In this document: positions 7,068 through 36,369 of the stretch, in pieces
How positions within the stretch are numbered: position 1 is the stretch's first letter
How the letters are laid out: every line of letters begins with the position of its first letter
From: a virus
IMG/VR virus record: IMGVR_UViG_3300048834_000889
Location: 1-37,222 of that record
Length of the DNA stretch: 37,222 nucleotides
Reading direction: 5' to 3' (one strand)
The notes under the pieces: generated by a model
The model's input: the letters and a program-made list of their open reading frames with translations, nothing else
What the model was told of the DNA's origin: nothing
The model's database searches: none
Made by a program: the position numbers and the translations under genes

Positions 7068-8501
7068 TCACAAGGCCCGGGGCGCCTGCTCGGCCTGGAA
7101 CCCGTCGCTCCACCGGAACAGCCGGCTGCCGTCCCCGCGCCGGATGACATCAACCAGTCGCCCGATCCGGGCCTTGGTGTAGCGCTCGGTCGGCTTCAGC
7201 TGCGCCCAGATGTGGGCGAGCCATGCCTGGCACTCGCTGCGGCTGGGATCGAACCGGAACGGCTGGCTCGCCCACGGCACCGTTAGCGTCCCGTAGAGCC
7301 GGCTGGCCAGCGCCTGCGTCATGCCCGGCGGGTAGAGCGGCAGCGGCTCGGGCTCTGGCACCACGATGCCGCCGACCAGCTGGTGCTGCTTGAGCAGCGC
7401 CTTCACGCCCGCCTGATGCTCATCGACCTGGTCGCGCACCCCGGCGCCCGGGCATTCGTTGTTGGAGTTGCCGCCCTTGCCGGTGAACTCCCGGTGCTCG
7501 AAGTCGGTCACGAGCCCAAACCTCGGATTGACCGGGTAACTGGTGTACGGCACCCGCAGATCGATCCCGCGTGGGTGGTTGCTCGCCCCGTCGAACAGCC
7601 ACGCCCAGAGCGCGATGCTCGCCTCGAGCTGGGGATCGGTCAGGCGCGCCGGCGACCGCAGGATGTGCTCGACCGAGAAGAGCCGGTCATTGACCGCGTT
7701 GACCCCGAACCGCTCCACGAACGCCGGGCCGTCGCCTTCGAGCCCCTGGGTATTGCCGTTGGCCCAGCCGGACCGCACCCCGAACGGATCGTTGAACATG
7801 GCGATCCGGCCCGCCTTGTCAATCGTGAAGTCCCAGAGGGCGTCCGCGTGGCGCTCCCCACCCACGGAGACGAACCCGCGATACCACTCGAGCGTCTGCT
7901 CCCCATCGGTGCAGTGGCGGACCCCGCCGACCGGCATCCGGGGCGCCACCTGGAAATACCCATTGCCCGGCCCGGCCTTGGTCACGATCATGTCCAGGAT
8001 CGCCGGTCTGGGAACGCGCCCGTACACGATCTGGCTTTGCGCCGGCGGTGGGCTCGGCGGCGGCACGGTGTCGCCGATCAACGGCAGCGCGGTGAAGTAC
8101 TGCTCGATTGTCCGGACGTACTGGGCGACGTTGTTGTTGTCATAGCCCGGCGCGTAAACGTTGATCAGGTCCCCGACTGACTGGGTGTCCTTGTAGGCAT
8201 ACCCGGGATCGTGGATCCGCTCGTTCCATTCCTGGATGCAGTCGGCCACTGAGGCGAAGGCCATGAACGACCCACCGCCCCGCTGCTTGAGGTTGAGCGG
8301 GTTCTTCATCCCGGCCGGCACCGCGGCGAAGTCGATGCCGCCCGAGCTCTCGGCCTGGAGCATGCCCCGCATCAGCCGGGAGACCGGCCGCGCCGCCTCC
8401 CAGCAGGCGCGCGCTTCGGGCCGCAGGATCGACGCCGCCGGCAGCGAGTCCCGGAAGGCCTCGAAGGAACAGTCACCGGAGATTCGCCAGTTGGTAGCCA
8501 T
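7068..8501 (-). CDS. Modular endolysin: N-terminal glycan-hydrolase-like domain plus Amidase_2
   Basis: This degrades peptidoglycan for host lysis. The 477-aa protein has an N-terminal module (about residues 40-140, MLQAES and later AQYVRTIEQYF) resembling glucosaminidase or lysozyme-like phage domains. A Pro-rich linker (about 145-160) follows. The central module resembles N-acetylmuramoyl-L-alanine amidase type 2, with SVEH and a C-terminal zinc-ligand CPG. A C-terminal helical module (about 390-477) with several Trp may bind the wall. GGAGG is 6-7 bp before the start, and the stop is one base from the 26-aa gene. The amidase call is firmer than the N-terminal one. Confidence 0.82.
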   Translation of the reverse strand: MATNWRISGDCSFEAFRDSLPAASILRPEARACWEAARPVSRLMRGMLQAESSGGIDFAAVPAGMKNPLNLKQRGGGSFMAFASVADCIQEWNERIHDPGYAYKDTQSVGDLINVYAPGYDNNNVAQYVRTIEQYFTALPLIGDTVPPPSPPPAQSQIVYGRVPRPAILDMIVTKAGPGNGYFQVAPRMPVGGVRHCTDGEQTLEWYRGFVSVGGERHADALWDFTIDKAGRIAMFNDPFGVRSGWANGNTQGLEGDGPAFVERFGVNAVNDRLFSVEHILRSPARLTDPQLEASIALWAWLFDGASNHPRGIDLRVPYTSYPVNPRFGLVTDFEHREFTGKGGNSNNECPGAGVRDQVDEHQAGVKALLKQHQLVGGIVVPEPEPLPLYPPGMTQALASRLYGTLTVPWASQPFRFDPSRSECQAWLAHIWAQLKPTERYTKARIGRLVDVIRRGDGSRLFRWSDGFQAEQAPRAL

Positions 8502-33962: not shown

Positions 33963-34589
33963 TCATGTCGTCTCTGTCGCCATTGAAAGCACGACCTTTC
34001 GGCACGTTTCCGCATCACCGAGCGCCCGGTGCCCACCCGGCGGAATCCCGAACCGGGCCGCCGCCACATCGAGCCGCTGCCATTTCGGTTTGCCGTAGTC
34101 GTTAAGCTCGCCCATGAAATCGGCGAAGGCCTGCATGGCACAGCCGCGGCCGGCAATGTCCAGTGAGATCGCCGGAACGCCGTGTCGCTGGCAGAGCCGA
34201 TTGATCAGGGGGAGATCGAAGCCGACGTTGTAGACCACCACGTATCGTCCGGCGATGGCGGCGCGAAGACGCTCAGCGACCTCCGGCCAGGTGGGCGCCG
34301 CGGCCACCATCGCATCGGTGATGCCATGCACGGCGGTAGCGTCAGCCGGAATTGGCTGTGTCGGCTGCACCAGGGTCTCGATGAGCACCGTCCCATCGCC
34401 GGCCACGACGGCGAGATCACAGACGTCGGCATCGAGTCCGAGGCCGGTGGTCTCCGTATCGAGGTAGACGACGGTCGGGTTATTGCCCACCTTGACCGCC
34501 CAGTCGATCGCGCGGTCGTGCGGCGTGGCCAGCCGAGAGACGGCCGCCGGTTCCGCCGGGAACAGCCCGGCCTGGATCACGTCATGCAT
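33963..34589 (-). CDS. DnaQ-like DEDDh 3'-5' exonuclease
   Basis: The 208-aa protein has all DEDDh motifs: DTETTGL with Asp44 and Glu46 (Exo I), NVGFDL with Asp125 (Exo II), and HRALGDAE with His187 and Asp192 (Exo III). It degrades DNA or RNA from the 3' end and may proofread or trim ends during phage replication. No polymerase is fused. AGGAGG is 9 bp before the ATG. The ~30 N-terminal residues before the fold are extra. Confidence 0.9.
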   Translation of the reverse strand: MHDVIQAGLFPAEPAAVSRLATPHDRAIDWAVKVGNNPTVVYLDTETTGLGLDADVCDLAVVAGDGTVLIETLVQPTQPIPADATAVHGITDAMVAAAPTWPEVAERLRAAIAGRYVVVYNVGFDLPLINRLCQRHGVPAISLDIAGRGCAMQAFADFMGELNDYGKPKWQRLDVAAARFGIPPGGHRALGDAETCRKVVLSMATETT

Positions 34590-34628: not shown

Positions 34629-35396
34629 TTACGCGCCGCGCTGCAAGCGCTGATCGGCGCCGAGGACGCCGATGACGGTGATCGCCTCGAAGAGCCGGCT
34701 GGTGGCGCGGCCACCCAGGCCCGCCCGGAGCACGGTCGGATCGTCATGGTTGGTGGTGACGATGGTGGCCTTGAGGTCCTCGTACCGGCGGTTGATCAGG
34801 ACGTAGAGCCGTTCCTGCACCCATTCGGACGATTTCTCACTGCCGAGGTCATCGAGCACCAGCAGCGACGGCCGGACCGCCGACGCAAGCGGATCCTCGT
34901 CCTCCGCGCTGTTGCCTGGGCGTTGCTCGTGCAGCCAGAGCGGAAGATTGATCAGTCCCACCGAAAGCCCCTGCTCGTGCATGGCCCGCAGGGCGCCAAT
35001 CGCCAAGCCGGTTTTGCCGGTTCCGGTCGGTCCGGCCAGCAGCAGATTCTCGCCACGCCGCCACGGCTCATTGGCCAGCCAGGTCCGCACGTCTGCGGCA
35101 GCGATGGGCTGCGGCGACGTGTCGAGCCGGTAGCCGGCAAACCGCCGCGGCACGAGCTCACCCCAGAGCTGCTCGCGCTTCCGCTCGGCGGCCAGGATGT
35201 CGCCGGCGGCGCAGAGGCAGATCGCGCCGCTCTCCGGCACCCGGCCGGTGTCGCCGCAGTCGCCACACTGGCAACGGGCGTCCCAGCCGAACTGCTCGAT
35301 GCGCGCTGCCTTGCGGTCAGCGTAGTCAGCGCGGATCGCCGCGAGCCGCTCCCGAAACGGCGGCACATAGTCGCTCAGGCGTTTCATCTCGCCCAT
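34629..35396 (-). CDS. DnaC-like AAA+ helicase loader
   Basis: The start at 35396 follows GGGAGA, one base after the initiator stop; the frame to 35549 lies inside that gene and is rejected. The 255-aa protein has an N-terminal Cys cluster (Cys42, 44, 47, 60, 62) that may bind zinc and the helicase. Walker A GPTGTGKT (122-129) and Walker B LLVLDDLG (178-185) follow, then sensor segments with TTNHD. It loads the host replicative helicase onto the phage origin together with the upstream initiator. Confidence 0.9.
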   Translation of the reverse strand: MGEMKRLSDYVPPFRERLAAIRADYADRKAARIEQFGWDARCQCGDCGDTGRVPESGAICLCAAGDILAAERKREQLWGELVPRRFAGYRLDTSPQPIAAADVRTWLANEPWRRGENLLLAGPTGTGKTGLAIGALRAMHEQGLSVGLINLPLWLHEQRPGNSAEDEDPLASAVRPSLLVLDDLGSEKSSEWVQERLYVLINRRYEDLKATIVTTNHDDPTVLRAGLGGRATSRLFEAITVIGVLGADQRLQRGA

Positions 35397-35397
35397 G

Positions 35398-36369
35398 TCA
35401 CGTCTCCCGCAGTTGTGTGATGAAGCGATCGGCGAAGGCTTTCTGATCAGCCTCGGTCGTGATGGCCGGCGCACGCGGCGGCCGGGGAGCGGACGGTGGC
35501 GGCGTGCCGCGTGCTTTCGGGGCGACCCGGACCGGCCGCCCCTGGGCAATCCATTGCGGCAGGGTTTCGGCCAGCTTGCGCACCGTCAGCTTGCCCGGGT
35601 CCGACCAGAAGGGATCGGACCGGAACCACCGGACACAGGCCTGCACATCCGCCGCGGCGATATCGCCGGCCAGCGGCTTCAGCGCGTCGAAGGCCTCCCG
35701 CCGCTCCCGGCCCTGGACCTGCTTCGGTTTCCGATCGGTCGCACTCGCCCAAGCATCGACCAGGGCGAAGACCTCGCCGTCTGGAACCGCTGCCGGCGCA
35801 TCGCCCTCATCGGTGGGGCCGGCGCCGGCGGCAGCCGCGCCGTCCTCCGAAGGAGGACCGTTCTCTTGGTACGGTTCTGGTACGGTTAAGGGTACGGTTA
35901 CGGACGGACTCTGTGCGCCGTCCGGCGGAGCTCCGTCGGAATTCCGTTGGACGTCCGTCGGAGATGCGCCGACGCTCGCTGATCCGTCCGCAGGACCTCC
36001 GGCACGTTTCTCGGGATTTCTCCCGGAACTCCCGCGCTTTCGCTCGGCATCGGCTTTGCGACGCTCGATGAGCTTGCCCGCGTAGTCGTGCCAGTCATGA
36101 ATGACGTGCCGGTCGCCGTCAGTATCGATGAAGCCGGCACCCTGAAGCGCTCCGTATAAGACTCCCTCAGCACCATCCCAGAGAGCGGCATCCTCGAGTT
36201 GCCATGGGTCGAATCCCGAAAGGTCGCCGTCCTGGGCGAAGTCAAGCGCCCAATGCCAGACCAGATGCAGGTGGCCGATCATCGTCGGCACACTCACGCC
36301 GGCCAGGCGGGCCGCCCGTTTCGTCTTCGGATGACGACCGATCTCCTGATGCGATTCAACCCACGCCAT
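35398..36369 (-). CDS. Replication initiator/replisome organiser
   Basis: The 323-aa protein has an N-terminal winged-helix-like domain (about residues 1-105, MAWVESHQEIGRHPKTKRA start and a DPWQLEDAALWDG segment), as in phage replisome organisers. A long low-complexity linker follows (about 105-200), then a C-terminal helical domain (about 205-275) possibly related to DnaD. It lies just before the helicase loader, the lambda O/P-like order. Its linker-coding DNA contains two iteron arrays, the probable origin it binds. Family assignment is by context and N-terminal pattern. Confidence 0.78.
   Translation of the reverse strand: MAWVESHQEIGRHPKTKRAARLAGVSVPTMIGHLHLVWHWALDFAQDGDLSGFDPWQLEDAALWDGAEGVLYGALQGAGFIDTDGDRHVIHDWHDYAGKLIERRKADAERKRGSSGRNPEKRAGGPADGSASVGASPTDVQRNSDGAPPDGAQSPSVTVPLTVPEPYQENGPPSEDGAAAAGAGPTDEGDAPAAVPDGEVFALVDAWASATDRKPKQVQGRERREAFDALKPLAGDIAAADVQACVRWFRSDPFWSDPGKLTVRKLAETLPQWIAQGRPVRVAPKARGTPPPSAPRPPRAPAITTEADQKAFADRFITQLRET
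35868..35962. other. Putative phage replication origin: two iteron arrays
   Basis: Array 1 has three copies of GGTACGGTT at 35868, 35879 and 35891. Array 2 has four copies of TCCGNYGGA, a near-palindrome, at 35921, 35932, 35943 and 35954, exactly 11 bp apart. An 11-bp period is about one helical turn and not a multiple of three, so coding cannot explain it. The arrays lie inside the initiator gene, as the lambda origin does in O. Array 1 is less GC-rich than its surroundings. Confidence 0.75.

Follow-up and report, generated by a model that had tools for sequence, protein, structure and literature searches.

Origins inside initiator genes

Replication origins that lie inside initiator genes are already established for phage lambda, phage SPP1, and plasmid pSK41 (PMC7466680, PMC6316719, PMC5703833). 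In lambda, the iterons and an unwinding tract are found within gene O, and the O protein binds the AT-rich region in single-stranded form (PMC7466680). The oriL of SPP1 lies within gene 38, where it comprises direct repeats and an AT-rich unwinding element, and the helicase loader of this phage is gp39 (PMC6316719). The origin of pSK41 (RepA_N) is central in rep, which encodes an N-terminal winged helix of ~120 residues, a linker, and a C-terminal domain with a DnaD-like structure; in plasmid pPR9, the N-terminal domain of pSK41, along with the origin region, is replaced by a phage-like one (PMC5703833). The DnaA-trio, the DnaD recognition element (B. subtilis oriC), and the strand-specific unwinding elements of RK2 and F are short strand-asymmetric repeats beside initiator boxes that are bound as single strands (PMC10797057, PMC10201434, PMC4081077). 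Plasmid Rep proteins stay bound to iterons while binding one strand of the unwinding element (PMC4081077), and the DnaD of B. subtilis binds one strand of oriC (PMC10201434).

The locus and its initiator protein

The window analysed here is the whole stretch of 37,222 bp (GC 67%) at positions 1-37,222 of the IMG/VR virus record IMGVR_UViG_3300048834_000889. A megablast of 12001-37000 (25 kb) against 50,697 phage records gave no match; judged from its sequence, the virus is far from the isolates in the records compared. The search of GTDB genomes gave no confirmed relatives of the initiator protein. The features of interest are the following.

34629..35396, minus strand: DnaC-like helicase loader (AAA+), next gene downstream of the initiator (phrog_50, E 8.5e-31; IstB_IS21, E 1.1e-11)
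35398..36369, minus strand: replication initiator gene, 323 aa (phrog_9474 match, E 3e-37)
35868..35900, plus strand: pentamer array GGTAC-GGTTC, GGTAC-GGTTA, GGTAC-GGTTA, from its sequence a probable DNA unwinding element
35901..35920: 20-bp spacer from the pentamer array to the iterons, from sequence
35921..35929: iteron 1, TCCGGCGGA, 11-bp tandem register
35932..35940: iteron 2, TCCGTCGGA, 11-bp tandem register
35943..35951: iteron 3, TCCGTTGGA, 11-bp tandem register
35954..35962: iteron 4, TCCGTCGGA, 11-bp tandem register
35987..35995: degenerate site TCCGCAGGA, a possible fifth iteron recognised by eye, 33 bp (3 x 11) from iteron 4 and in register

The match to PHROG 9474, a replication initiation protein, covers residues 1-133 of the 323-aa protein (E 3e-37). 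The helicase loader that the first-pass annotation had placed next door is the DnaC-like gene at 34629-35396, directly downstream. Further downstream lies a DnaQ-like exonuclease (33963-34589, minus strand), and the upstream neighbour of the initiator is a putative phage metallopeptidase (PF18894; 36375-37019, minus strand). The initiator protein is predicted to have three parts.

Residues ~1-116: winged-helix-like N-terminal domain, helices and a two-stranded wing (AlphaFold model, confident)
Residues ~124-195: disordered linker (AlphaFold model)
Residues ~197-276: helical DnaD-like C-terminal domain (AlphaFold model and profile similarity)

The profile of the C-terminal part is similar to DnaD 8ojj (E 0.0017), and both arrays encode part of the predicted unstructured linker. 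A Pfam search of the initiator returned no family at E up to 1, and thus no RepA_N domain, and a Foldseek search of its model against the PDB gave nothing at E below 1. The top-ranked fold match is the RepA initiator 4pta, a weak hit (Z 4.7, 83 aligned, 3.3 A) that ties with unrelated winged helices. No O-like PHROG was found for the window's initiator; the protein of one relative (L004) does match O-like families.

Four iterons in tandem register and an array of pentamers

The first-pass annotation had described two iteron arrays within the initiator gene: three GGTACGGTT repeats spaced by 11 and 12 bp, and four TCCGNYGGA near-palindromes spaced by exactly 11 bp. The coordinates and spacings of both proved exact. 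The second set retains the character of iterons, with spacings of 11, 11, and 11 bp. Single copies of TCCGNYGGA are not rare in the window (10 found against 6.0 expected by shuffling, with isolated copies at 7109 and 30734), and because a single copy is thus nearly expected in such a GC-rich window, it is the tandem register that constitutes the signal. The degenerate site TCCGCAGGA belongs to a 33-bp repeat family (D1). An isolated TCCGAAGGA is present at 35846-35854, beyond the pentamer array and out of the 11-bp register with the iterons.

The other array does not behave as a set of iterons. The 37 kb window contains no perfect copies of GGTACGGTT besides the three at 35868, 35879, and 35891 (spacing 11 and 12), each of which decomposes into a pair of pentamers (G/T)(G/C)T(A/T)N, GGTAC being followed by GGTTC or GGTTA, with the GGTWN strand antisense to the initiator gene. 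The least stable 40-mer of this gene starts at 35861, on the pentamer array, and is among the least stable 0.65% of the window. The A+T content of the array is the highest within the gene, but it is moderate, about 52% against 33% for the window. The GGTACGGTT array is better described as a local form of a pentamer array, and from its sequence it is a probable DNA unwinding element. Searching the viral collection for three exact GGTACGGTT gave 0 matches; that spelling is therefore specific to the window's phage, and we dropped it as an exact shared motif. The DnaD recognition element is defined by two or more copies of 5'-TnnT-3' on one strand, to which DnaD binds; by eye, we saw two overlapping TnnT near 35875-35881, and they do not recur along the pentamer array.

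The encoded peptide does not account for the arrays

We recoded the 323-residue protein 20,000 times at random with synonymous codons, following the window's codon usage. At 11-bp spacing, the recodings contained at most 2 TCCGNYGGA in a row, against 4 in the actual gene; in the 11/12-bp register, they contained at most 1 GGTACGGTT, against 3; and neither array was reproduced in any of the 20,000 recodings. The periods of 11 and 5 are out of phase with codons, as the first-pass annotation had noted for the period of 11, and they point to selection on the DNA and not on the peptide. The repeats could in principle have no role as DNA and just reflect a linker peptide that is repetitive or of low complexity, given that the linker is predicted to be disordered and that some relatives have repeats of 6 bp or 12 bp, in phase with codons. 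This is scarcely credible for periods that are out of codon phase and that synonymous shuffling does not reproduce, the more so as two protein families translate the same pentamer from opposite strands (see below).

Relatives identified by the DNA pattern

A run of three exact TCCGNYGGA spaced by 11 bp is present in 17 stretches of the viral collection, far more than expected from base composition (well under one by a rough estimate). In most of these stretches, among the matches listed, a skewed T-containing second array adjoins the iterons on the same side as in the window. The looser pattern TCCNNNGGA was found in 59 stretches, and the ORFs overlapping its arrays most often match replication initiation families, including PHROG 9474 in 33 of 82 ORFs. 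A scan with 12-bp spacing, intended as a negative control, gave 74 stretches, yet 13 of its ORFs come from the same initiator family, and it is not a clean negative. Since these 13 ORFs belong to the family, the sequences indicate that it tolerates an iteron spacing of 11 or 12 bp. In this family, the initiators of L084, L085, L101, L102, L107, L112, L138, L141, and L147 carry TCCNNNGGA spaced by 12 bp instead of 11 and in phase with codons. In the Microcystis phage Mae-JY24 (L163, 2486-3310), which like the Paenibacillus phage Harrison (L158) is a cultured relative, three iterons resembling GTGAACGGTTT, spaced by exactly 11 bp, stand beside four tctggc hexamers.

In five Paenibacillus-type loci, the region upstream of the gene contains a further TCCNNNGGA array (L009 5862-5892, L015 8123-8153, L048 1227-1257, L052 7085-7115, L063 10860-10890), at some 85-105 bp from the initiator start codon. 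These upstream arrays are possibly operators or second origin sites. Their position, where an operator would be expected, is what lends some weight to the idea that the TCCGNYGGA array itself is an operator, bound by the initiator or a repressor and controlling the transcription of the replication genes. We regard this as very unlikely for the window, where the array lies about 410-450 nt inside the initiator coding region, no second array exists upstream of the gene, and the pentamer array accompanies the iterons. A role as operator could in any case be compatible with one as origin.

Relatives identified by the protein: periods, order, and iteron classes

We also gathered initiators through their N-terminal domain and reduced them at 70% identity, which left 89, of which 57 (the window's among them) had been found through protein similarity only. 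For each gene, we took the best 24-nt self-match at lags 4-24 and compared it with 300 synonymous-codon shuffles. Among the 57, the lowest possible p was reached at lag 11 in 18 genes, at lag 5 in 14, at lag 10 in 13, and at lag 22 in 9; lags 7, 8, 13, 14, 16, 17, 19, 21, and 23 reached it in 0 or 1 gene each. For the window's own gene, p is 0.01 (lag 11) and 0.003 (lag 22); many relatives fall short of significance. Among the 89 non-redundant relatives, the 11-bp period of the iterons and the 5-bp period of the pentamers exceed the synonymous shuffles. The iteron blocks are mostly found 332-455 nt into the gene, and in 28 of the 31 genes with strong blocks of both, the pentamers follow the iterons in the direction of the gene's 3' end.

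The two elements have different patterns of conservation. The sequence of the iterons varies between initiator clades (TCCNNNGGA, GTGAC, GTTAC, CACGT, and others), with a period of 11-12 bp, and the pentamer array stays similar while the iterons change. Iteron classes cluster on the tree built from N-terminal domains, which is poorly resolved: 0 of 200 shuffles were as low overall, both in a first set, biased because some genes had been chosen for TCCNNNGGA, and in a second, unbiased one; in the latter, the TCCNNNGGA class alone is not significant (48/500). The swap in pPR9 fits this coupling of iteron class and N-terminal domain. The pentamer profile of 48 genes, on the antisense strand, is (G/T)(G/C)T(T/A/C)N, with A almost absent at positions 1-3 and GGTAC and GGTTA as the commonest units; its blocks were chosen for a period of 5 or 10, so the period there is not independent evidence. 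The window's GGTACGGTT array fits this profile. AT-skew alone was rejected as a mark of the element, being weak (mean z 0.48 against synonymous shuffles) and inconsistent in its offset.

These data bear on whether both arrays could be iteron sets, serving two DNA-binding surfaces of the initiator or two proteins. Both arrays are in tandem at about 11-bp spacing in the window, and the initiator is predicted to have two folded domains. The possibility is nevertheless unlikely, because across relatives the second array has a period of 5, not 11, and a skewed pentamer profile, because it stays similar while the iterons change, and because no other part of the gene is as unstable.

A second initiator family identified by the pentamers alone

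A scan for five GGTWN pentamers identified at least 80 loci, and the following figures are from the 80 matches listed. PHROG 9474 is matched by 21 of the 35 ORFs to which the array is antisense, and the DnaD-like PHROG 8489/5708, a different family, by 21 of the 34 that have it on their sense strand. In this DnaD-like family, the sense-strand GGTWN array encodes a repeated peptide, VRLGKVRLGK. The VRLGKVRLGKD of DnaD-like prophage proteins is a translated GGTTA/GGTAA array adjoining 11-bp iterons in L251, L254, L273, L316, and others. In 18 non-redundant members, chosen by the pentamer alone among the matches listed, lag 11 has the top mean z before the array (1.87, the next being 1.01), and the lag-11 block usually ends within about 25 nt of the pentamers. 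From these sequences, the position of the pentamers relative to the iterons is conserved and their GGTWN strand is reversed between the two initiator families; with opposite strands, no single polarity rule holds.

A probable replication origin in the linker-coding part of the initiator gene

We conclude, with a probability of roughly 85%, that the arrays are a phage replication origin in the linker-coding part of the initiator gene. The reasons are that the arrays are unexplained by coding, recur beside diverse initiators, coincide with low duplex stability, and adjoin the loader gene. The first-pass annotation had proposed a probable origin in this linker, and the predicted disorder of the linker and the same layout in related initiators support it. 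The GC skew has no turn at the array site, in a record that is possibly incomplete. At such an origin, the N-terminal domain of the initiator would bind the four TCCGNYGGA iterons, which would lie on one face of the DNA because they are spaced by one helical turn. The assembled complex would then melt the adjacent pentamer array, where opening is expected to begin, the loader encoded next door would deliver the replicative helicase of the host to the exposed strand, and replication would start at this site.

We tentatively suggest, at somewhat less than even odds, that the (G/T)(G/C)T(A/T)N array is a sequence-specific single-strand element that corresponds, in phages, to the DnaA-trio and the DnaD recognition element; it would be shared by two or more initiator families, direct helicase loading, and replace a plain AT-rich tract in GC-rich phages such as the window's. 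A single-strand role of the pentamers is plausible by analogy because lambda O, plasmid Rep proteins, and B. subtilis DnaD bind single strands. The pentamer array may account for a curious peptide that recurs in the replication proteins of prophages: if the single-strand reading is true, it would explain VRLGKVRLGK in the DnaD-like proteins of Firmicutes prophages as origin DNA read as protein. More generally, 11-bp iterons and a pentamer array inside an initiator gene could provide a sequence rule to locate the origins of many uncultured phages, and a simple system for asking how origins open without an AT-rich tract.

Comparison with known systems

We found no description of the pentamer element, or of the layout of 11-bp iterons and pentamers, in phage origins, in a literature whose subscription journals were thinly covered. 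The locus had been likened to lambda-type origins, and the likeness holds for the layout: the iterons are within the initiator gene, as in O, the loader gene is next, and the order is the same, since in lambda the iterons are followed, toward the 3' end of the gene, by a tract that is T-rich on its antisense strand, and in the window by the pentamers. It does not extend to the elements themselves. The annotated lambda iterons are inverted repeats of 18 bp placed 20-24 bp apart, whereas those of the window have 9 bp at 11 bp; the lambda tract is AT-rich, whereas the window has an ordered GGTWN pentamer array; and the window's initiator gave no match to O-like families, which the L004 protein does match. 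SPP1 oriL, compared by its description, shares direct repeats and an unwinding element inside the initiator gene, that of the window being predicted from duplex stability. The pSK41 system resembles the window in having its origin (a probable one in the window) central in the initiator gene, and in the order of winged helix, linker, and DnaD-like C-terminal domain (all predicted in the window); it differs in its RepA_N Pfam match, absent here, and in its iterons and DNA element. What the window shares with B. subtilis oriC, RK2, and F is a short repeated strand-asymmetric motif adjoining the initiator sites. Its repeat unit has 5 nt, not 3 or 13, in contrast to the trinucleotide 3'-(G/A)AT that the DnaA-trio repeats next to DnaA boxes, and its strand varies between the two phage families.
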